64,000 nt of DNA, taken from positions 2,907,501 through 2,971,500 of the forward strand of contig NZ_CP065511.1 in NCBI RefSeq assembly GCF_022811925.1, written 5' to 3'. The translations under genes and the position numbers were made by a program. The number at the start of each line of letters is the position of its first letter. Within the stretch, counting starts at the first letter, position 1. The notes below the pieces were generated by a model. It saw nothing but the letters and a program-made list of their open reading frames with translations, was not told where the DNA came from and ran no database searches. The stretch is from Cytobacillus oceanisediminis. GTDB lineage: Bacteria > Bacillota > Bacilli > Bacillales > Cytobacillaceae. Shown here in pieces: positions 33,692-44,280 of this stretch.

Positions 33692-36600
33692 TTAGTTCTG
33701 AAATACTGTAACAGTTTTAGGACTCGTGGTCACTTTAAAGCCCTGCTTACTTGATACATCCGCACTAATGGTGTAAGTCCCATTCGGAAGATCTGCGTCT
33801 GGAGTCCACTTCAAGTGAATTTCATGTTCGTTTTCCACATTGATTGTGTCAACGGTTTTTCCTGCTTCATCTTTAATGTTCACTGTCCAGTTAACACGGT
33901 TATTTGCAAATGCATTGATGCCGGCAGGCGTGTTTGCATTCACATTTTTATTAGGATAAACACTGAAGTAGCTCACTAGCATCCCCTCATCTATATAGGA
34001 AGGATCTCCCCATACAGCATAGCTCTGGTTTAATGCATGGTCGACACCCATTACGACAACGCTCTTCGGTTCTTCTTTTACAAGGGCTGAAGTTTTTCCA
34101 GGTTCGAGCGGCATATACTTCCCGTTATACCAGATGATTGCACCATTATAGCCGCTACCCCCTTCGTTATCTTCTGACTTGAAGGAAATCTCATATTGGC
34201 CGTCCTTTGGCTGTACTTGAATATCCGAGACTATTGGTGCAACTGAATCTACGTGAACCGGAAGCCTTACTTCCTGAGGTTTGGCATCCTTGTAATCAAG
34301 TGTTGTTTTGATTACATACTGATAGGTTCCATCCTCAACGAATTGCCCATTTTGATTCTTAACATCCCATAAATAGCCGTAAATCAGATAATCCCCGAAT
34401 GCCATAATATTTTTTCGGAACTTCCATGGCTTGCCGGTATATTCACTGAAGTCGCCTAAATAATTGATCATTTCACCTTTATCATTCTCAACGTACATTT
34501 CTGTTTTTTGTAAGTTGCGGAGAGCTGTAAAGGATGGGAAAACACCCGGCAAGACAGCATTAGGAGAAATCACAATGCGGTCCATATTAAAGGTTCCGGT
34601 ATACGGGTCATATCCCATTGGGAATCGTGCGCCTTCATCGTTCCAAAGCACGGAATATCCTAAGAAAGCATCTTTCTCCCATGCAGCAGGGTCAAGGTTT
34701 TGCGGCTTGTCCCATTCTCCATAATAGCCCATGTATGGTACCGTTAGCGAAACAGCTGCATCGCTATTTTCCCCAGATGGCACAAGACGGACATATCCTT
34801 CGACAAATGTGCCCTTTTTTAGGCTATCCGGCAATTGAATCTGTACATCCAGACTCTTATTTTGTCCTGGCTTAATTTTAAGCGTTTTTCCTTCTTTGCC
34901 GGTCACTTTTTCACCATTTACGATGGCAGAAGCAACTGAAATCCGCTTGCTGGTCATTGTTAAATATTCCTTGGCATCCAAATTACCGTCGTTGTCCAAG
35001 TCAAACTCTTTTGTTTCAGTTTCGTCTGTTAAAACATCAACGAACACTTTATATTCCAAATCTTTCACGCCTGCATCCTGAAATGCTTCTACATTCAATT
35101 TGAAGTGTGTTTTGTTTTCTGTAATTTCCTTAAGAGCAATCGCTCCTGCCTGTTCCAAAGGAGCGTTATTATTTGTGACAATTACAGGTGTTTTGATCGC
35201 ATTTTGTATTTGCATCAATCCGGATCCCTGTACGCGTGGAGAGTAAGGGACTTGGCTGTTTGCCCGCGGATCCTTAATGATTTTTGACGTATTCATTAAG
35301 GCGATTTTCGCTTTTAATGCCGTCTCTTTGGATTGCGGCAATCCTTTTTCATATAAAGCCTGCAGCAGCAAAGCTGATCCGCCTGCGACATGAGGTGCTG
35401 CCATGGACGTACCGCTCATGATTTCATATTCATTGCCGGGAACAGTGGAATAAATCCCCCCGCCTGGTGCTGATAGCTCAGGTTTGAAGTCAAGCGTATG
35501 CGGAGTTCCAAAAGATGAAAAGTCTGACATGTTATCTTTATCAGCATTATCCACCCAAACACCTTTGCTCATCTGCATTTTCACTGTTTGTCCCTTGGAC
35601 AGCTGCGAAATTAAAGCATTCCCGTCCTCCTTGCTGGTTGTTGCTGCAGGGGTTAAGTATGGACTAAAATACAAGAAAGGATAATCAGCTTCGTCATGAG
35701 GCGGTACAAGGATAACCGCCTTGGCACCATTTTTTCTGGCTTCAGATTGTACATATGAATATAAACCATATTTTTGATTTGGTTTTGCTACGACTATTTT
35801 GCCTGCAACATCTTTTCCGGCAAAATCAGCCGTCTTCCCTTCCCCTACATATACCATTTCATAGCTTTCTCCTGATGTTAGAACTTTTGAAAGCTTGAAG
35901 TTTACATGGGTCTGATCCTGGTATGGAAGCTGCAAACTGTTTTCATCAGTAAGTGCATTCATATGCAATTTAGTATTTTCATAGGATGCTACTGATAGAG
36001 CAAACGGGCTGACAGATGGTTCTCCGACAGTGCCGATATCCGGATTTTCCGCATATGGCTTGGCAGAAGCCTCCAAAATATTATTTTTAGTACTGTAAGA
36101 TGAATTGCCTCCAGCAACTACCACTAGGGTACCCTGCTCAGTTGCTTCCCGGATTGACTTTTGGATTGGATCATTTTCTTCTCCAACAAAGCCGGCATCT
36201 GAGCCAAGACTCATGTTAATGACATCAGCCCCCATTGCCACAGCGTGTTCAATTCCAGCAATAATATCATCTTCATATGCTCCCCCGCCGTTATCAGAAA
36301 ATACTTTTTCAGCTAATAACTGTACACCCGGAGCAATACCCTTAACTCCATCATTTTCCTCATCGCCATTAGCACCTACTGTACCGGCGACATGCATGCC
36401 ATGCGGACTTCCATACTGTCCGCGGGGTATGACATCCGTATCTTCATCGGCCCAGTCATAGCCTGTCGGCACTTTGTCACTATACCAGACGTCATTAATA
36501 GCCGTTTCAGAGAGTTTTGCCTGAATTCCTCCCTCAGACCATTTCTGCTTGTCTTTCCCTTCATCCGTCAATGTCATATCCTGGTGTGTATAGTCCAATC

Positions 36601-37207
36601 CGGAGTCAACTACAGCAACAAGCAGCCCTTCGCCTTCAAAGCCATGCTGCTCCCAGACCTTCTGTGCCTGCACTAATTCCTTGCTGGCACCCATGGATGG
36701 CTGGAATGTTCTCGCAATATGTACGTTAGTGACACCAGGAATTGCCTGAATTTCTTTTAAATTACGAAACTCAGTTTCCAGGCTGAAACCATTAAACCCC
36801 TCAAAAAAGCGATGCTTTACTTTCTTGAAAGATTTTTTCTTGGAAAGCGCTGAAATAACCTCGTCTTGTTTTGCCTTCATTTTACTTTTTTTGCTTTGTT
36901 TCGTTTCTTCAGTATCTGACAGCTGTTCGACCTCAACAATTACACGTAAAATTTCATTTGGCTCATATGGTTTCGTTAACCCTTTTTCTTTTAGATCCTT
37001 ATATCCCAGCTTGTCCACGGCCTTTGTTTCAGCCTGATATTGCTGTTCCAAAAATATTTTCTGCCCCTGCTTAACAATGTCTTCAACACTTGGAGCCTCG
37101 ATCTGATCATCCTGAGCTCCTTGTGCCGAGACTGTCCCCCCGAATAGCATTGCTGCTGCCAATGCTGAAGCCAGCACCTTATAGGGTACCCCTTTTTTCA
37201 CTTTCAT
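33692..37207 (-). CDS. Secreted subtilisin-family (S8) protease, multidomain
   Basis: 1171 aa. Signal peptide (hydrophobic stretch LASALAAAMLFGGTVSA), propeptide, then the subtilase domain with Asp about 201 (VAVVDSG), His about 269 (HGMHVAGTVG) and Ser about 601 (SGTSMAAPHVAG). A PA-type insert lies near 425-550. Downstream are beta-rich domains, and a perfect EF-hand-like loop DLDNDGNLDAKE near 736-747. Similar to Vpr/lactocepin-type exoproteases; no sortase motif at the C-terminus, so released or loosely bound. ATG 37207 behind GGGAGAG. Its promoter belongs to the CCCAA group. Confidence 0.93.
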   Translation of the reverse strand: MKVKKGVPYKVLASALAAAMLFGGTVSAQGAQDDQIEAPSVEDIVKQGQKIFLEQQYQAETKAVDKLGYKDLKEKGLTKPYEPNEILRVIVEVEQLSDTEETKQSKKSKMKAKQDEVISALSKKKSFKKVKHRFFEGFNGFSLETEFRNLKEIQAIPGVTNVHIARTFQPSMGASKELVQAQKVWEQHGFEGEGLLVAVVDSGLDYTHQDMTLTDEGKDKQKWSEGGIQAKLSETAINDVWYSDKVPTGYDWADEDTDVIPRGQYGSPHGMHVAGTVGANGDEENDGVKGIAPGVQLLAEKVFSDNGGGAYEDDIIAGIEHAVAMGADVINMSLGSDAGFVGEENDPIQKSIREATEQGTLVVVAGGNSSYSTKNNILEASAKPYAENPDIGTVGEPSVSPFALSVASYENTKLHMNALTDENSLQLPYQDQTHVNFKLSKVLTSGESYEMVYVGEGKTADFAGKDVAGKIVVAKPNQKYGLYSYVQSEARKNGAKAVILVPPHDEADYPFLYFSPYLTPAATTSKEDGNALISQLSKGQTVKMQMSKGVWVDNADKDNMSDFSSFGTPHTLDFKPELSAPGGGIYSTVPGNEYEIMSGTSMAAPHVAGGSALLLQALYEKGLPQSKETALKAKIALMNTSKIIKDPRANSQVPYSPRVQGSGLMQIQNAIKTPVIVTNNNAPLEQAGAIALKEITENKTHFKLNVEAFQDAGVKDLEYKVFVDVLTDETETKEFDLDNDGNLDAKEYLTMTSKRISVASAIVNGEKVTGKEGKTLKIKPGQNKSLDVQIQLPDSLKKGTFVEGYVRLVPSGENSDAAVSLTVPYMGYYGEWDKPQNLDPAAWEKDAFLGYSVLWNDEGARFPMGYDPYTGTFNMDRIVISPNAVLPGVFPSFTALRNLQKTEMYVENDKGEMINYLGDFSEYTGKPWKFRKNIMAFGDYLIYGYLWDVKNQNGQFVEDGTYQYVIKTTLDYKDAKPQEVRLPVHVDSVAPIVSDIQVQPKDGQYEISFKSEDNEGGSGYNGAIIWYNGKYMPLEPGKTSALVKEEPKSVVVMGVDHALNQSYAVWGDPSYIDEGMLVSYFSVYPNKNVNANTPAGINAFANNRVNWTVNIKDEAGKTVDTINVENEHEIHLKWTPDADLPNGTYTISADVSSKQGFKVTTSPKTVTVFQN

Positions 37208-37265
37208 TTCTCTCCCGCCCTTTCCCCTTGAAAAATTCAATATTTTTTAACTTTTCATAAAATTA

Positions 37266-37299
37266 ATTGTAGAGCCGGGTCTGAGAGAAGTAAATTGGG
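37266..37299 (-). promoter_or_regulatory. CCCAA-abutted promoter of the S8 protease
   Basis: On the minus strand CCCAA, then directly TTTACT (-35), 17 bp, TACAAT (-10). The same layout is found before the calY operon and the M4 protease. Confidence 0.7.
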
Positions 37300-37444
37300 G
37301 GAATCTAAAAGGAGGTATCTGTTTAATTTTAGAACTTTATATCCAGATCGCAGGGTCTCTTCCTATTTAAACAGTATAAAAGACACATTCCCTAACCTAT
37401 TTTCTTTTAGCTTCCTCACTTTCTGGTAAAAAAGGCTTTTTCAA

Positions 37445-37504
37445 ATTACCCCAAATTGAAATCTTTAAAAACCTCTTAGGAATAATATCCCAAGATATTT
37501 TGGG
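37445..37504 (+). promoter_or_regulatory. CCCAA-type boxes before the first RNPP regulator
   Basis: TTACCCCAAATTGAAAT at about 37446-37462 and a true palindrome CCCAA-N6-TTGGG at 37489-37504. The 387-bp divergent region (37208-37594) between the S8 and regulator genes also holds the S8 promoter box. Promoter elements for the regulator are not clear. Confidence 0.5.
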
Positions 37505-37594
37505 AAAAACAGACATCTGACATTTCCTGGCTATCTGTTTCTAGCTGATAAGGTATGCTACGATAATATTCAGAACCACAGGGGGGATGCTGTT

Positions 37595-38839
37595 TTGAAG
37601 GAAGGCTTAATTATAAAATATTACCGGGAACGGGCTGGTTTGACCCAAACACAGCTGGGCGAAGGGATTTGTTCAGTGACTCATATCAGTAAAATAGAGC
37701 GGGGACATACACAATATTCGTCCGAAATCACAAATCTGATCTGTAAACGCCTGAACATAGATCTTATAAAAGAGCTTGAAAAGTTTGATATGCTGGAGAC
37801 TAAACTTCATGAGTGGCTGGATGCCATGGTTAAACAGCAAAAAGAAGATATAGAATTAATTAAAGAGGAATTAGCCCAAAATCCTTACCTGCATTTTTCG
37901 GAAACAAAATATTTTCATTCAATCCTTTTGGCTCGCTACCACCTGATGCAAGGAGACCACGAAAAAGGCAAATCGCTTTTAGACAGCTGCCAAAAAGCCT
38001 GGAACACTCTGGATCGTTTTGAACGGAATCTTCTGGAGCATACATGGAGCATTTATTTTCTAAACTTACAGAATTGCAAAGAAGCCATCGCCCATTTAAA
38101 GAATATTAACCCTAAAGAATATAATAACCATGAATTTTATTTTCACCTCGCAACCTCTTCCCATTTGATGAATGATAGGGTAAAAGCCTATCACTATGGC
38201 ACTCTTGCACTATCCTATTTTCGGGAAACCAATAATTTTAAAAGAATTCTTGATACAGAAACCGTTTTACTGATACAAATGGGTACATACGACCTTTGCC
38301 AATTTGAAGAAACCGTTTAGCAGTATCATACATTAATCAGGTCCTGCCGGGCTCATAAAGAAGAAGCCAGGGAAATGAACCTTTGGCATAATCTTGCCGT
38401 TGAATACTTTGCAAAAGGCTTTTATTCAGAAGCGAGTGAAGTTTACAAAAAGGTATTGGAACAATGCGATTTAATTCCTAATCCACTTATAAAATTAGGT
38501 GCTATAAGAGGCTATGTCCATAGCTGCCTTAATCTTGATCATTATAAGAAACAAAATCTCAGATCCTTGCTTGACGATGGCCGCAGGCTAGCTGAACAAT
38601 TTCAAAATAAAACCTATCAATATGTTTTTTATATGCTCGATATCCTTTTAGAAGATAAAGACATAAATGATTACTATCTCTTTTTAGAAAATACATTCCT
38701 TCCCCACCTCCATGAATTAGGGAATAGCACATTAATCAACCTCTATGAAAAAGAATTATTCCATTATTACAGGAAGTCGTCACAGCATGAAAAAGCTAGC
38801 GGGCTTGCAGCAAAGTACTTCGAGCCGCTCATCCATTAA
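37595..38839 (+). pseudogene. RNPP/NprR-like HTH-TPR regulator broken by one amber codon
   Basis: Frame of 415 codons from TTG 37595 (behind GGGGGG) with a single in-frame TAG at 38318-38320. Before it: helix-turn-helix (GLTQTQLGEGICSVTHISKIERG) and first TPRs; after it the same frame continues with TPRs (LWHNLAVEYFAKGFYSEASEVYKKVL) to 38839. The paralogue at 39074-40333 is intact and aligns throughout. The change is probably a single substitution of a Gln or Glu codon. A truncated 241-aa product, read-through or a sequencing error are alternatives. Confidence 0.85.
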
Positions 38840-38845
38840 ACAGCA

Positions 38846-38884
38846 GAAAATTCTCCTTATCTTTCATAGGAGATTTTTCTTTTT
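38846..38884 (+). terminator. Terminator after the first RNPP gene
   Basis: TTCTCCTTAT/ATAGGAGAT stem followed by TTTTTCTTTTT. Confidence 0.7.
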
Positions 38885-38933
38885 GCCCTCTTTTCTGCTT
38901 TCTCCCAGTTGAGCCTTTTCTCCTTATTTCCTG

Positions 38934-38987
38934 TTTACTCCCCCAAAGGAGTTATGTCTTCTGACCCTAAAAATTCCCCCAAAAAGG
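38934..38987 (+). promoter_or_regulatory. Two CCCCCAA boxes before the second RNPP regulator
   Basis: TTTACTCCCCCAAAGGAG (38934-38951) and AAATTCCCCCAAAAAGG (38971-38987). The ATTCCCCCAA core of the second is identical to that at the S8 promoter. No good -35 or -10 follows at fixed distance, so the role is inferred from the core only. Confidence 0.4.
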
Positions 38988-39073
38988 AAAATCTTAGATA
39001 AAAGATAATTAAGTATTTAAGAGACAGCTGCCTGGCATATTCACCTATATATAATATAGAAGGAGAGGATCAC

Positions 39074-40333
39074 ATGCTGGAAGGGGAAATTATTAAATTC
39101 TACCGGGAAAAATCCGGACTTACACAAGCCATGTTAGGTGAAGGGATTTGCACTCCTACCCATGTAAGCAAAATTGAAAGAGGGAAAACTGCTTATTCAC
39201 CGGAAATTATTTCACTTTTCTCTGCCGTTTTAAATATCGACATTCAAAAGGAAATTGAATATTTTCGGGATTTGGACAAGCGCCTGCAGGAATGGCATAA
39301 AGCCATCATTATGTATAGATTAGCCAGGGCTGAGGAAATAAAAAATGAACTGGAAAGCACACCTTTTATTCAGTCTTCTAAATATGCAGCCCACTATCTG
39401 CTTTTAAAGGCAAGATATCATTTCCTGCATCAGGAATTAGAAGAAGCATCCCGGATTATTAAGCAAATAGGCACTGAGTTTCCTAACCTCTCCCTTTTTG
39501 AAAGAAATTTATTTTACCATGTTCAAGGGATGTATTATATTAATCAAGCAATAAAACCTGATAGCCCGGATCAGCAAAAGGCACTTCAGGTCTTAAAAAA
39601 TATCGATATAAATGAATATGGCAATGAAGAATACTTTTATCACCTGGCAATCGCCTATCATTATATTGATTCAAAAATCATGGCTTACATGTTTGCGGAA
39701 AAATCATTGCAGCACTTCAAAAACACAAACAACTACACGATGGCTATAAAAGCGGAATCCATTATCCTCCTGCAGATCAGCAGTGATATCTTAACCGACA
39801 TGGATAAACTGGCAGAACGGTATCATCATTTAATCTGGGACTGCGAACGAATAGGATTTCATGACTATAAAGGGCTGCTATACAATAATTTAGGATTTGA
39901 GTATTTTAATAGGGAACAATATGCTAAGGCAAAGGAGTGCTATAAACAGGCCTTGCGTTTAGCTGACAGGAATACAGTCATTTATCTTCAGCGATTATAC
40001 TCTTACCTTAATTCCTGTATAGAAGGCAAATTATCCGGTAAAACAGCCCTTCTTAAAAAAGCATGCGAAGGGATTCAGGTTTCAAAGGAGCTAAAAAGCA
40101 CTTTATACTTATCGTTATTTAAACTTTCTAAGTATCAGCTTTATCATCAGCGAGAGAAATACTTTAAGTTTTTGGAAGAAAAGGCTTTCCCTGAATTTGT
40201 TAAAATTAAGCATATGATTCTTATGCGCAGGTATGGCAAAAAGCTTTATGAATATTACATCGAGACAGGAAATCATGAAAAAGCCATTCATTTGAACAGG
40301 CAGCTTGAAGGCAAAGAATTAATTAATGTGTAA
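39074..40333 (+). CDS. RNPP/NprR-like HTH-TPR transcriptional regulator
   Basis: 419 aa. N-terminal helix-turn-helix (SGLTQAMLGEGICTPTHVSK, about 12-31) followed by TPR repeats to the C-terminus (NNLGFEYFNREQYAKAKECY). RNPP proteins (NprR, PlcR, PrgX) bind a secreted-and-reimported peptide and switch exoprotease and virulence genes. ATG at 39074 with AGGAGAGG. No hydrophobic signal-bearing propeptide gene is seen next to it. Neighbours are two exoproteases and the camelysin operon, its likely targets. Confidence 0.9.
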   Translation: MLEGEIIKFYREKSGLTQAMLGEGICTPTHVSKIERGKTAYSPEIISLFSAVLNIDIQKEIEYFRDLDKRLQEWHKAIIMYRLARAEEIKNELESTPFIQSSKYAAHYLLLKARYHFLHQELEEASRIIKQIGTEFPNLSLFERNLFYHVQGMYYINQAIKPDSPDQQKALQVLKNIDINEYGNEEYFYHLAIAYHYIDSKIMAYMFAEKSLQHFKNTNNYTMAIKAESIILLQISSDILTDMDKLAERYHHLIWDCERIGFHDYKGLLYNNLGFEYFNREQYAKAKECYKQALRLADRNTVIYLQRLYSYLNSCIEGKLSGKTALLKKACEGIQVSKELKSTLYLSLFKLSKYQLYHQREKYFKFLEEKAFPEFVKIKHMILMRRYGKKLYEYYIETGNHEKAIHLNRQLEGKELINV

Positions 40334-40370
40334 AAAAATCCCTTGAATTTTCTTTCAAGGGATTTTTTTG
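40331..40370. terminator. Bidirectional terminator between RNPP regulator and calY
   Basis: AAATCCCTTGAA/TTCAAGGGATTT stem with A and T runs on both sides. Confidence 0.9.
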
Positions 40371-40379
40371 TCGCATCTA

Positions 40380-40979
40380 TTATTTTACTGTTCCTTCAGC
40401 CTGTTCTGCATTGAATTTCCATTCCACCTGCAGTGCATCTCCCTGGAATTCATTTTGGTCCTCTCCGTTATCCACAAATTCGAACAGCGCTATTATTTTA
40501 TCGGTTTCCCCAGGTTTCAGGCCATCCGGTACTGTTCCCCCTCCTACAAAGTTATCAATGGCTGTTAAATCCGGAGTTTGTGATTGCAGTTCATGCAAAG
40601 TCGTCTCTGCAACCTGTACGGTTGCGTTAGCCTGATTGTAAAGGATCGTGACTTTAATATGCTTGCCGAAATCATCCGCATTTGCAGCCCCATTTAATTT
40701 TGCATCTTCCACCTGATAATTTGTATGCAGCAAGATCTTGGAGATATCTAGAGTGCCGTTATTTGTGATGGTAAATTCACGTGAAACTTCATCACCTGGT
40801 TTTAAATCGCCAATATTGACGATTGTTTCAGGGTTTACCGCCAAATCCAGGGTACCTGCTGCAAACGTGTTATTCGTAACCTCCGTATCGCTGAAGTAAG
40901 CGTATGTACCCCCACCCATTAATGAAAAACCTAAAGCAGCTGTCAAAAGTCCTTTACTTACCTTTTTTGCAAATCCCAT
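40380..40979 (-). CDS. calY: CalY/TasA-family camelysin, biofilm matrix protein
   Basis: 199 aa. Signal peptide (GLLTAALGFSLMGGGTYA) followed by the family start YFSDTEVTNNTFAAGTLDLAV, then ITNNGTLDISKILL. CalY/TasA proteins assemble into amyloid-like fibres in the matrix; CalY also has the peptidase M73 name. Processed by SipW, encoded directly upstream in the operon. ATG 40979; the operon is read from the promoter at 42308-42341. Confidence 0.92.
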   Translation of the reverse strand: MGFAKKVSKGLLTAALGFSLMGGGTYAYFSDTEVTNNTFAAGTLDLAVNPETIVNIGDLKPGDEVSREFTITNNGTLDISKILLHTNYQVEDAKLNGAANADDFGKHIKVTILYNQANATVQVAETTLHELQSQTPDLTAIDNFVGGGTVPDGLKPGETDKIIALFEFVDNGEDQNEFQGDALQVEWKFNAEQAEGTVK

Positions 40980-41058
40980 GTGTTACTTCCTCCTTTAAAT
41001 ACTATAAATTTATTTAACTCTTATTTACCTGTGGCAGATAAGAGGCATAACCGAAGTA

Positions 41059-41601
41059 TTAAGCGTTTTTAGTTTCGTATTCTTTAAGAGCCAGAAAAAT
41101 AGTCCTCCCTGCAGATAGCAGCAGGAGCAGTCCCGGGATAAACAGCAGGAGTGCGGCTCCTTCCTTGGATGCTGCAAACTCAGCAGCATAGCCTGCATAT
41201 GGAATGGTAAAACCCGCATATTTACCGGTTATATTTTCAGGCTGCACATATTCCATATCCGGAGCGTCATTGTTGTCGCCTTTCGTTTGATATAAAATTC
41301 CGGCTTTCGTTGTCTTTACTTCGACAATTCTATGGGTAATTAATTTATCTCCTGATTTAAAGGTAATAATATCTTCCGTTTTTAAATTTTCTTTACTGTC
41401 CAGTTGTTTCACTAGAATGATGGATCCTGTCATGAAGGTCGGTTCCATCGATCCCGATAAAACAGCTTTTGCCTGATACCCTGCAAGGGACGGTTCTCCT
41501 CCGGATGCTTTTGAGGATATCACCCAAATAGCAAGCAGGCAGAGGAGCATCAATCCTGCTGCACTGATACATTTACTCAGTATTTTCAGGGCTTTCTTCA
41601 T
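41059..41601 (-). CDS. sipW: ER-type signal peptidase SipW
   Basis: 180 aa. Catalytic Ser in LSGSMEPTFMTGSIILVKQ (about 52), His/Asp box GDKLITHRIVEV and GDNNDAPDMEYVQP; N-terminal membrane anchor and a C-terminal hydrophobic stretch (GAALLLFIPGLLLLLSAG). SipW-type enzymes mature TasA/CalY-like proteins. ATG 41601 with AGGAGG; overlaps the end of the DUF4047-like gene by 29 bp, so translationally coupled. calY follows after 79 bp. Confidence 0.93.
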   Translation of the reverse strand: MKKALKILSKCISAAGLMLLCLLAIWVISSKASGGEPSLAGYQAKAVLSGSMEPTFMTGSIILVKQLDSKENLKTEDIITFKSGDKLITHRIVEVKTTKAGILYQTKGDNNDAPDMEYVQPENITGKYAGFTIPYAGYAAEFAASKEGAALLLFIPGLLLLLSAGRTIFLALKEYETKNA

Positions 41602-42271
41602 TGGCTATTTCCTCCTCTTCATCCTTCTGTGTGTGATCGTTAGTAACAGAATGTTCTTCCTTTAGGTTCGCCTGTTCTTCAATTGTATCTTCGTGGTCTA
41701 CCTTTTGCTTAGGTATTTCTATTTTTTCATCCTCATCCAACTTGTCTGTTTTAAGGCCCTCGTTTTGCTGCTCTTTCTTCCGCGCCTGTAATTTTTGGTT
41801 AAAAAGCTGTTCCAGCTCCTGAAGATAAAGAGAATCATTCATTATCAAAAGGAGCTTGTCTACTTTTAGAAAACCTTCACTTACATACTCATATCCTTCC
41901 TTTTTTTCTGCTTGCCGGTCCAGTTTTTCCAGTTCAGCTCTTATTCTATGAAGTTCCTCCAAGCTGGCTGTTATCTGTTCTTTTTTTCTCAAAAATTCAG
42001 AGGGCGGATCTTCGGTCCCATTAAAGAGCCCGTTCTTCACAGATGTTTCTAAACCCGCCTGCTCTTTTACTATTTGTTCACTGCTTATCCTCGCTTTCTC
42101 TTCAAGCCCGTGAATATATGAAGGGAAGACAAAAGCAGTGGAGATATTAATAGGCTTTGCCTCTGCCTGGCTTGTAAAGGCAGCTTCTGTTTTCCCGACA
42201 AGCTGAGTGCCCGCATAAAAACTCAGGCAGCAAAGACATGGCAATATGACTTTGTTCAACTGCTTCCCCAT
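41573..42271 (-). CDS. DUF4047-like secreted protein, first gene of the calY operon
   Basis: 232 aa. Hydrophobic N-terminus VILPCLCCLSFYAGTQLVGK then TEAAFTSQA, as in DUF4047 proteins found with sipW/calY in Bacillus. The remainder is a long charged helix, probably coiled coil, ending in a Glu-rich tail. The signal segment resembles the ones cut by SipW. ATG 42271 behind GAGAGGAG. Likely matrix accessory, in the place of tapA. Exact role unknown. Confidence 0.8.
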   Translation of the reverse strand: MGKQLNKVILPCLCCLSFYAGTQLVGKTEAAFTSQAEAKPINISTAFVFPSYIHGLEEKARISSEQIVKEQAGLETSVKNGLFNGTEDPPSEFLRKKEQITASLEELHRIRAELEKLDRQAEKKEGYEYVSEGFLKVDKLLLIMNDSLYLQELEQLFNQKLQARKKEQQNEGLKTDKLDEDEKIEIPKQKVDHEDTIEEQANLKEEHSVTNDHTQKDEEEEIANEESPENTE

Positions 42272-42307
42272 CTCCCGCTCTCCTCTCGAAAAGGTGTCTG
42301 TGGAACA

Positions 42308-42341
42308 AGCATACGAGAGGTCATGTGCAAAGTAAATTGGG
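42308..42341 (-). promoter_or_regulatory. CCCAA-abutted promoter of the DUF4047-sipW-calY operon
   Basis: On the minus strand CCCAA, then directly TTTACT (-35), 17 bp, TATGCT (-10). The 12 bases CCCAATTTACTT are shared with the S8 protease promoter. Confidence 0.7.
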
Positions 42342-42425
42342 TTATTTTGCGGTATTCCAAGGCAAAATACAAGCTATTTTGATTTCCGAGTTCATGAAAG
42401 ACAGTCATTTCGCTGATCCCTATAA

Positions 42426-42459
42426 CCCAATTGACCATTTGTGGAATTTTCAGAATAAT
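42426..42459 (+). promoter_or_regulatory. CCCAA-abutted promoter of the M4 protease
   Basis: CCCAA, then directly TTGACC (-35), 17 bp, AATAAT (-10). Together with the calY promoter it forms an inverted pair of boxes about 80 bp apart in one divergent region. Confidence 0.7.
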
Positions 42460-42498
42460 GGACCTTGAAATACCAATCCAAATTAAGAGGTGATCCGT

Positions 42499-44280
42499 TT
42501 GAAAAGAAATCAGCTGAAAAAGAAAGTCCTCCCTGCAGTTCTGGCAGCTTCGTTTGCCATCTCAGGACTATCACTGCCCGCCAAAAATGTGCTGGCAAAT
42601 GAAGAAATCGTTAAGTATCATCAGGAATTAAAGACGCCTTCCTACATAATTGGGAACTGGCAAGCTCCTGAAGGAATGAACAAGGAAGAAGCCGTTTATG
42701 CGTTCCTTCAATCAAAGGCGAACTTATTCAAAAATGCCGGCTACGATTCCAGGGATCAATTCAAAATCATTGATCAATTTAATGATAAGCAAACAAACAC
42801 ACACCATTTCAGAACAGTAGAGCAATATAACGGAATTCCTGTATACGGATCACAGCAGACCATTGCTTTGGACGACAGTAACAATGTGACAGCCTTCTTC
42901 GGTAAAGTTACACCAAATCTGGCACGTTCCATTATTCCTACAGATGCGAAACTGGGGGAAGATGAAGCATTGGAAAAGGTAAAGGAAAGCATTGAAGATA
43001 AAATCGGAGAAGTGAAGAGCTATGACGGTATAGAAGGAGAACTTGTTATTTATCCGCATAATGGGCAAAAGGTTCTGGCTTATTATGTAACAGCTTCCAC
43101 CTCAGCGCCGGCACCGGGGTATTGGCATTATTTCGTAGATGCTGCAACTGGAAACATCATTCATAGCTATAATGCCATCACAGAACTGACACCATCTTTG
43201 CCTGAACAACCTGAGGCACAGCAGACGGCTTCTTCCCAGCCTGCACCGAAAGCACTTCCGACTGTTTCAGAACCTGTTCAGGCAAGAGGAATGGATATTT
43301 TCGGGACACTGCAGTCATTCCAGTCAGTTAAAGATCCGGAAACAGGAACACATTATTTATTCGATGGGACAAGATCTAAGGGAGTCCATACATTCAAAGC
43401 GAACCGCATGCCTGAAAACACGTTTATTATCCTTTCAGCGCTTTTGGGCCTAACTGGATTTGAGGTTGAAAGCCGAAATAACTTCTTCTATGATCCCTCT
43501 GCTGTGTCTGCACATGTGAACGCAGGTAAAGTTTATGATTACTATAAAAAGGTTCATGGCCGGGATTCCCTTGATGGCGATGGGATGAAATTAGTTTCAA
43601 CTGTCCATATCGGTTCGAAGTGGAATAATGCTGCATGGAATGGGAAGCAGATGCTATACGGTGATGGTGACGGGACTCGCATGATTTCCTTGTCCGGCGG
43701 TCTTGATGTGATCGGGCATGAAATGACACACGGTGTTATCACCAATACAGCCGATTTAATTTATGAAAATGAATCCGGTGCGATCAATGAATCCATTGCA
43801 GATATTTTAGGGGCTTTCGCTGAAAATAAAACAGGTGAAGACCTATGGTTATTGGGCGAGGATATTTGGACGCCTAATACACCAGGTGACGGTCTCCGTT
43901 CCATGAGTGATCCAGGTTCGGTCTATATTGGCGGCTATACAGAATCAGGCTACTACCCTGATCACTACAGCAAACGTTATATTGGAGAACTTGATAAAGG
44001 CGGTGTGCATATCAACAGCAGCATCAACAACAAAGCAGCCCATCTGATCACAGATGGAGGCACTCATTACGGTGTTTCGGTTACAGGAATTGGAAAGACA
44101 AAAGCCGAGAAGATCTTCTACAGAGCACTTACCCATTACCTGACAGCAAGCTCCGACTTCAGCCAAATGCGCCAGGCAGCCATCCAGGCGGCAAGAGATC
44201 TGCATCCGGATCGAAACGGACAGCCTTCAGCTGAGGTAAAGGCCGTCATGGCAGCATATGATGCTGTTGGCGTTCAGTAA
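42499..44280 (+). CDS. Bacillolysin-type M4 neutral metalloprotease
   Basis: 593 aa preproenzyme. Signal peptide, FTP/PepSY propeptide (about 50-220), then the thermolysin domain: zinc motif GHEMTHGVI (HExxH), downstream glutamate ligand in ESGAINESIADI, and the C-terminal helical domain with IQAARDLHP. Secreted zinc protease that degrades extracellular protein. TTG 42499 follows AGAGGTG at 6-7 nt; the GTG at 42490 lies inside that site. Divergent from the DUF4047-sipW-calY operon with a matching CCCAA promoter. Confidence 0.94.
   Translation: MKRNQLKKKVLPAVLAASFAISGLSLPAKNVLANEEIVKYHQELKTPSYIIGNWQAPEGMNKEEAVYAFLQSKANLFKNAGYDSRDQFKIIDQFNDKQTNTHHFRTVEQYNGIPVYGSQQTIALDDSNNVTAFFGKVTPNLARSIIPTDAKLGEDEALEKVKESIEDKIGEVKSYDGIEGELVIYPHNGQKVLAYYVTASTSAPAPGYWHYFVDAATGNIIHSYNAITELTPSLPEQPEAQQTASSQPAPKALPTVSEPVQARGMDIFGTLQSFQSVKDPETGTHYLFDGTRSKGVHTFKANRMPENTFIILSALLGLTGFEVESRNNFFYDPSAVSAHVNAGKVYDYYKKVHGRDSLDGDGMKLVSTVHIGSKWNNAAWNGKQMLYGDGDGTRMISLSGGLDVIGHEMTHGVITNTADLIYENESGAINESIADILGAFAENKTGEDLWLLGEDIWTPNTPGDGLRSMSDPGSVYIGGYTESGYYPDHYSKRYIGELDKGGVHINSSINNKAAHLITDGGTHYGVSVTGIGKTKAEKIFYRALTHYLTASSDFSQMRQAAIQAARDLHPDRNGQPSAEVKAVMAAYDAVGVQ

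Follow-up and report, generated by a model that had tools for sequence, protein, structure and literature searches.

Gene content and boxed promoters of the locus

The 64,000-bp stretch of the Cytobacillus oceanisediminis genome analyzed here (NZ_CP065511.1, positions 2,907,501 to 2,971,500; hereafter the window, whose coordinates are used throughout) contains a cluster of protease, regulator and biofilm-matrix genes at 33.7-44.3 kb, in which three promoters carry a CCCAA box directly upstream of their -35 elements. We think it likely that these boxes are operators of the adjoining NprR-like regulators, which are predicted to contain helix-turn-helix (HTH) and tetratricopeptide repeat (TPR) domains, and that the operators are often used in pairs, with bridging by a regulator tetramer as the simplest mechanism. 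The protease and biofilm-fibre genes are probably switched together by the adjoining regulator. The genome carrying the locus is 5.58 Mb in size and, among the matches listed, its nearest named relatives are Bacillus sp. NTK034 and C. oceanisediminis strains.

The cluster begins with the gene for a secreted S8 (subtilase) protease, S8-1 (33692..37240, minus strand; Pfam PF00082, 2.9e-51), which is followed on the plus strand by genes for two HTH-TPR paralogues. Regulator 1 (37595..38839) is interrupted by one in-frame TAG, which divides it into open reading frames (ORFs) at 37595-38320 and 38375-38839; no such codon is present in the orthologues of five close relatives, where the reading frame is intact. 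Regulator 2 (39074..40333) is an NprR-like protein of 419 amino acids with Pfam HTH_3 and TPR matches and TPTHVSKIERG in its recognition helix region. The matrix operon follows on the minus strand and encodes a TapA-like protein as its first gene (DUF4047; 41573..42271; Pfam, 2.6e-6; named from its position), the SipW signal peptidase (41059..41601; NCBIfam SigPepSipWBacil, 5.8e-67, exceeding the cut-off) and a CalY/TasA-type matrix fibre protein (40380..40979; Pfam Peptidase_M73, 2.2e-74). Divergent from this operon is the gene for a secreted protease of the M4 (thermolysin) family (42490..44280, plus strand; Pfam M4 and M4_C).

An earlier note, made from the DNA letters of the window, had described CCCAA abutting the -35, a 17-bp spacer and a -10 at three promoters, and all three are exact: CCCAA-TTTACT-N17-TACAAT before S8-1 (37266..37299, minus strand), CCCAA-TTTACT-N17-TATGCT before tapA-sipW-calY (42308..42341, minus strand; left member of the divergent pair) and CCCAA-TTGACC-N17-AATAAT before M4 (42426..42459, plus strand; right member). 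The exact pattern matches three times in the window and not once in any of 200 sequences from a first-order Markov model. With two mismatches allowed, the window has six matches and the shuffles 8.6 on average; the pattern is therefore informative only in its exact form. In a genome scan, a check of the kind suggested in the note, the promoter-type pattern has four exact matches in the whole genome, compared with two for the reversed-pattern control, and these are the three window promoters and that of another S8 protease gene, S8-2. The fourth match lies 88 bp upstream of S8-2, whose product is only 28% identical to the S8 protease of the window and whose gene adjoins that of a third regulator paralogue (41% identity). 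An argument for enrichment by frequency was dropped, as the motif with a loose -10 gave nine matches in the same genome versus 11 for the reversed control; what distinguishes the sites is where they stand and how well they are conserved, and not raw frequency. A looser scan of this genome with WWWAMCCCAAWTKR yielded 21 matches versus 12 for its control, five of them at known or paired sites (two in the tapA-M4 pair, two at S8-2 and one before regulator 1), the remaining 16 not having been inspected. This genome also has a second sipW (G000:C1:1266060-1266605), whose product is 56% identical to SipW of the window and which probably belongs to a second matrix operon; none of the four exact matches in the genome is located at this gene.

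CCCCAA cores before both regulator genes, also noted earlier, are present at 37445 before regulator 1 and at 38937 and 38973 before regulator 2. The first is a distal operator-like site, ATTACCCCAAATTGA (37445..37459, plus strand), in the orientation opposite to the S8-1 site, from which it is separated by 151 bp (first C to first C); S8-2 is arranged likewise, with a distance of 128 bp. Before regulator 2, a weaker CCCAA site (38937..38951, plus strand) precedes ATTCCCCCAAAAAGG (38973..38987, plus strand), and the two possibly serve autoregulation of regulator 2. All three sites occur in the window and in five close relatives: ATTCCCCCAAAAAGG is identical in all, the site at 37445 varies at one base and that at 38937 has a looser form. 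A TCCCAA-N6-TTGGGA inverted repeat (37488-37505) is also found upstream of regulator 1 and is poorly conserved in relatives.

Conservation of the element and its match to the recognition helix

The element consists of AWTMMCCCAATTKAC and a -10 after a 17-bp spacer, and is found in many genera of Bacillaceae before S8 and M4 protease genes and before tapA-sipW-calY operons, in the vicinity of HTH-TPR regulators of the NprR type. The S8-1 box is kept before the orthologue in all five close relatives (L036-L040), and genus mates have the identical box before orthologous and paralogous S8, M4 and tapA genes adjoining regulators. Among loci drawn with SipW, M4 or S8, the exact box occurs in 18 of 18 from this genome and its five close relatives. 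The remaining drawn loci have it in 0/24 (SipW), 0/24 (M4) and 2/24 (S8) cases, the last two being a stray match and a true site whose S8-1 orthologue has no regulator match nearby. Most of these SipW and M4 loci lie apart from regulators of this type, and only 1 and 7-8 of them, respectively, adjoin diverged ones. In L204 (G003:C1:2275068), a boxed S8-1 orthologue without a nearby regulator match, the protease gene matches in two pieces, which suggests decay of the cassette.

The 79 named loci, the best of a longer list drawn by regulator alignment, include boxed members from Rossellomorea, Ornithinibacillus, Virgibacillus, Peribacillus, Fictibacillus, Gottfriedia, Neobacillus, Scopulibacillus and Paucisalibacillus, and many without the box. 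After removal of redundancy, CCCAATTKAC is present in 29 of 153 upstream regions of target genes and in none of the 777 non-target upstream regions at these loci. Permuted motifs reach a mean of 0.10 and a maximum of 12, and the top-ranking 8-mer obtained without a prior motif is TAACCCAA. Twelve further motif matches, picked by eye mainly for a good -10, comprise six intergenic matches with a gene within 374 bp, one intergenic match without a near gene and five inside ORFs; all six near genes encode S8 subtilases by Pfam, three of which are alike. The analysis supports what the earlier note had proposed, namely a cis element shared by exoprotease and matrix genes and tied to adjoining RNPP-type, NprR-like regulators. 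The pairing of the boxes at set spacing, the link of the operator to the recognition helix, the S8-2 locus and the interruption of regulator 1 had not been described in that note.

The promoter geometry is also general. Among 39 non-redundant exact sites, a set that includes chance ones, a -10-like hexamer is found at the 17-bp offset in 27 and one base further in another six. The left flank of these sites is AWTMM, with T at position -3 in 37 of 39. In the Cytobacillus kochii-like loci L046, L047 and L048, the M4 box precedes a TTGACG -35 by 10-11 bp, or approximately one helical turn.

The operator word follows the recognition helix of the nearby regulator: ACCCAA accompanies TH-type helices, TCTCRA LSY-type helices and ACCCGR SSKH- and GKAY-type helices. 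For 79 non-redundant regulators with nearby targets, [ST][VTAIGP]TH helices are associated with the exact box in 32 of 51 cases and with the core in 46, whereas all other helices are associated with the exact box in 0 and the core in 3 of 28. At GKAY-helix loci, AACCCGATTG is found in 5/7 targets versus 0/235 elsewhere, and one GKAY target additionally has AACCCAATTG. The helix changes at least seven times on the regulator tree. No clear operator word was found for the SNTH and SSTH classes. The S8 promoters of the SNTH-class loci L258, L262, L265, L272 and L284 have words in common, among them GGGTACCC and CCCCCCAT, in four of seven upstream regions; these may represent a further operator variant.

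Matrix and exoprotease genes of Bacillus are classically controlled by regulators such as SinR, AbrB, ScoC and DegU. A widespread transition-state or biofilm regulator of this kind might therefore bind the element, the HTH-TPR gene being a passenger in a protease cassette, and it fits this explanation that some boxed S8 genes are not beside any regulator found. We consider it improbable nonetheless, as different helix classes of the nearby HTH-TPR protein go with different operator words and the exact box is missing from the remaining drawn SipW and M4 loci, most of which are not beside HTH-TPR regulators.

Pairs of candidate operators at set spacing

In several genera, the divergent cores between tapA (or sipW) and M4 are 84-88 bp apart, mostly 85 bp, including 85 bp in the window (42341 to 42426, first C to first C) and 87-88 bp in L046-L048. 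The sequence between the boxes is not conserved: identities of the window spacer to eight spacers from other genera are 0.22-0.39, compared with shuffle means of 0.26-0.31 and maxima of 0.38-0.44, yet the lengths of all nine differ by at most 1 bp. Regulator, S8, M4 and tapA genes recur as cassettes, and the boxes might thus be functionless leftovers of cassette duplication whose spacing is kept only by the rarity of insertions and deletions. Such inherited homology is very improbable given that the spacers have diverged to shuffle level while boxes and length are kept, that the identical box stands before different types of genes, and that the operator word differs by helix class at unchanged spacing.

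This last point comes from a comparison of 43 tapA-M4 regions, four of them seen twice. ACCCAA pairs at 84-88 bp are present in 17 of 29 regions with TH-type or other regulators versus 0 of 14 with SY or SSKH types, TCTCRA pairs at 84-85 bp in 6 of 9 SY regions versus 0 of 34 others, and ACCCGR pairs at 85 bp in 4 of 5 SSKH regions versus 0 of 38 others, one of which pairs at 42 bp. The regular expression used detected no pair in the SY-type L221, L249 and L250 and the SSKH-type L222; it also missed L244 and L245, which a separate pair listing puts at 85 bp. Before S8 genes, paired boxes are spaced by 95 bp in the Gottfriedia group, in addition to the 128 bp of S8-2 in Cytobacillus and the 151 bp of S8-1 in the window. 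Tandem pairs are separated by 107-110 bp in 10 of the 12 listed, some from close relatives, which is only suggestive of a real set distance.

A scan blind to regulators and genes, with TTGGGTTAN{70,100}TAACCCAA in 397 Bacillales genomes, gave 38 matches in 35 genomes, while the reversed control matched 10 genomes. Thirty of the 38 loci were read, and five of the eight unread ones are at 85 or 86 bp. At distances of 84, 85, 86 and 95 bp, 19 of 19 loci read are intergenic and upstream of M4, TapA, SipW or S8 genes, whereas at other distances none of 11 is upstream of such targets and one is inside an S8-like ORF (Fisher 1.8e-8, with related species counted separately).

Several observations weigh against our interpretation. 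The helix classes and operator words were set after inspection of the data; among the 51 regulators with permissive helices, 19 lack an exact box in their vicinity and five lack even the core. Only four independent supported pairs are available on the regulator tree, too few for a sign test, and in them the core changes with the helix in 3.4 cases on average and against it in 0.0. The M4 promoters of L043 and L044 show no box, and only 15 of 28 boxes, with both members of a pair counted, have a CCCAA partner of opposite orientation within 320 bp. The 84-86 grouping of the blind scan was likewise fixed after the scan: the earlier range of 84-88 plus 95 bp gives 19/20 versus 0/10 (Fisher 3.7e-7, with a coding match at 87 bp), and adding two unread, coding-looking matches at 86 bp gives 19/22 (4e-6). 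At 108-138 bp, only 3 of 30 matches read are at targets, and these three come from a single genus and are all spaced by 128 bp; longer spacings thus rest on few lineages. Finally, the geometry of divergent promoters alone could maintain the tapA-M4 spacing, although not the S8 spacing where there is no divergent partner gene.

The pairs at set spacing fit a tetrameric NprR- or PrgX-like regulator bridging two operators. PrgX of Enterococcus pCF10 is described as an RNPP tetramer whose operators, one an 11-bp palindrome and the other a half site at the promoter, lie on one helix face with centres 91 bp apart, and its looping was tested (PMC5552905). A layout of this type, with two operators at set, near-helical spacing and one of them at a promoter, is found here, albeit not for every box, and the architecture, as judged from sequence, may work like PrgX looping. 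PrgX represses plasmid conjugation, whereas the promoters here are those of chromosomal exoprotease and matrix genes with another operator in many lineages. RcoLS20 of plasmid pLS20 similarly forms tetramers that loop two operators with a 75-bp spacer (PMC8014075); it differs in being a conjugation repressor relieved by a Rap anti-repressor and has no link to exoproteases.

Regulator family, mode of control and signal

Regulator 2 has the domain architecture of the RRNPP family (HTH_3, 1.1e-9; TPR_1 and TPR_2 at the cut-off), and its predicted structure is all helical with a predicted local distance difference test score of 91.2 and a TPR fold that matches Rap and NprR in a VIA-align comparison covering the families listed. 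Comparison of the single sequence with solved structures gave NprR at 1.7e-12 and PlcR at 4.7e-5; profile comparison gave NprR at 1.5e-35, RapI at 5e-13 and PlcR at 4e-7, and in the latter two designed TPR proteins ranked higher than NprR. NprR is the closest natural solved relative of regulator 2 by sequence and fold, and both the sequence and the modelled fold place the regulators with NprR.

For these regulators we infer direct binding, tetramer formation with looping, and activation. The HTH domain would read AWTMMCCCAAT, which abuts the -35 of sigma-A-type promoters on its upstream side and extends into it; the two HTH pairs of a tetramer would hold both operators in a short DNA loop; the looped divergent protease and matrix promoters would switch together; and an imported peptide may control the switch. 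The earlier note had placed the boxes where an activator touches sigma, and the element is indeed placed to allow such contact. Activation would be favoured over repression by the mainly activating role of NprR, by the non-consensus sequence of the -35s and by the shift of the M4 box in the C. kochii-like loci to approximately one turn upstream. A PrgX-like repressor, whose -35 half site blocks RNA polymerase and whose distal site anchors a loop until a ligand relieves the repression, would account for the extension of the box into the -35 and resembles the layout of the palindromic and half operators 91 bp apart that loop in PrgX (PMC5552905). We regard repression of this kind as unlikely, as 37 of 41 genes are down in an nprR-nprX mutant (PMC3325205) and the box of L046-L048 is clear of the -35.

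The earlier note had also taken a quorum-sensing regulon to be likely, and this part is not borne out by the genes and residues inspected. A small ORF with a ribosome-binding site is missing downstream of 60 of the 88 regulators in the named loci, and an all-against-all comparison of 188 small intergenic ORFs near regulators revealed no family across genera, only matches that were within a genus, overlapping or confined to two or three loci, although such searches could miss fast-evolving or distant peptide genes. The residues of NprR in contact with NprX, R126, Y165 and W167, are replaced in regulator 2 by Q120, A159 and K161, and those in contact with Spo0F, D107 and Y118, by S101 and K112, according to one pairwise alignment with numbering set by W79, which is unsure around 159-161. 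A dedicated, secreted NprX-like pheromone encoded beside the regulator, as in classical quorum sensing, is therefore rather doubtful, even though the predicted fold is NprR-like and the TPR domain retains an Asn at the position corresponding to NprR 275. An SKPDIVG-type NprX pattern has four matches in the 397 genomes, none of the three read being near an NprR-like or protease gene and the fourth, from the same genus, not having been opened. Nothing was found at 1e-40 with an NprR fragment in 15 genomes guessed to be near the B. cereus group, a search that had no positive control. Complete RRNPP quorum-sensing systems are recognized by a directly adjacent propeptide gene (PMC10075063), and the regulators here fall outside that definition and are filed by fold only.

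The system differs from NprR-NprX of the B. cereus group in that no nprX-like gene was found beside the regulators studied, the checked NprX- and Spo0F-contact residues are not kept in regulator 2, each genome has several regulator paralogues, S8 proteases and a TasA-type matrix operon are among the targets, and the candidate operators form pairs. PlcR-PapR of the same group is alike in having an HTH-TPR activator of secreted enzymes with a weak sequence match (E 4e-7), but the PlcR box is a TATG...CATA palindrome (PMC4147580), unlike AWTMMCCCAATTKAC or the CCCAATTKAC of the three promoters, and no papR-like gene was found here.

The DNA target sequence of NprR was called undetermined in 2014 (PMC4147580), and binding of two sites by the two HTH pairs of the NprR tetramer was only proposed (PMC5349214). 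No published description of this operator and regulator arrangement was found in the literature searched, whose coverage mostly excludes subscription papers. Comparative genomics now provides, for relatives of NprR, a candidate operator, helix-linked variants and a set pair spacing, the last of which predicts a short loop; the operator code and set spacing make helix-swap and spacing tests simple. Public-good proteolysis would be linked to matrix production in one switch, and regulons may be predicted in many non-model Bacillaceae. More speculatively, a large, undescribed NprR-like family without a dedicated pheromone gene might control secreted proteolysis and TasA-type matrix across Bacillaceae through a tetramer with an 85-bp ruler and a helix-operator code, possibly sensing peptides that the controlled proteases release or fragments of their pro-regions. 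If this is true, the helix-operator code would be readable, from TH to CCCAA, from LSY to CTCRA and from SSKH or GKAY to CCCGR, and the paralogous sets of regulators and proteases in one genome would act as feedback circuits that run in parallel, serving different extracellular proteins.

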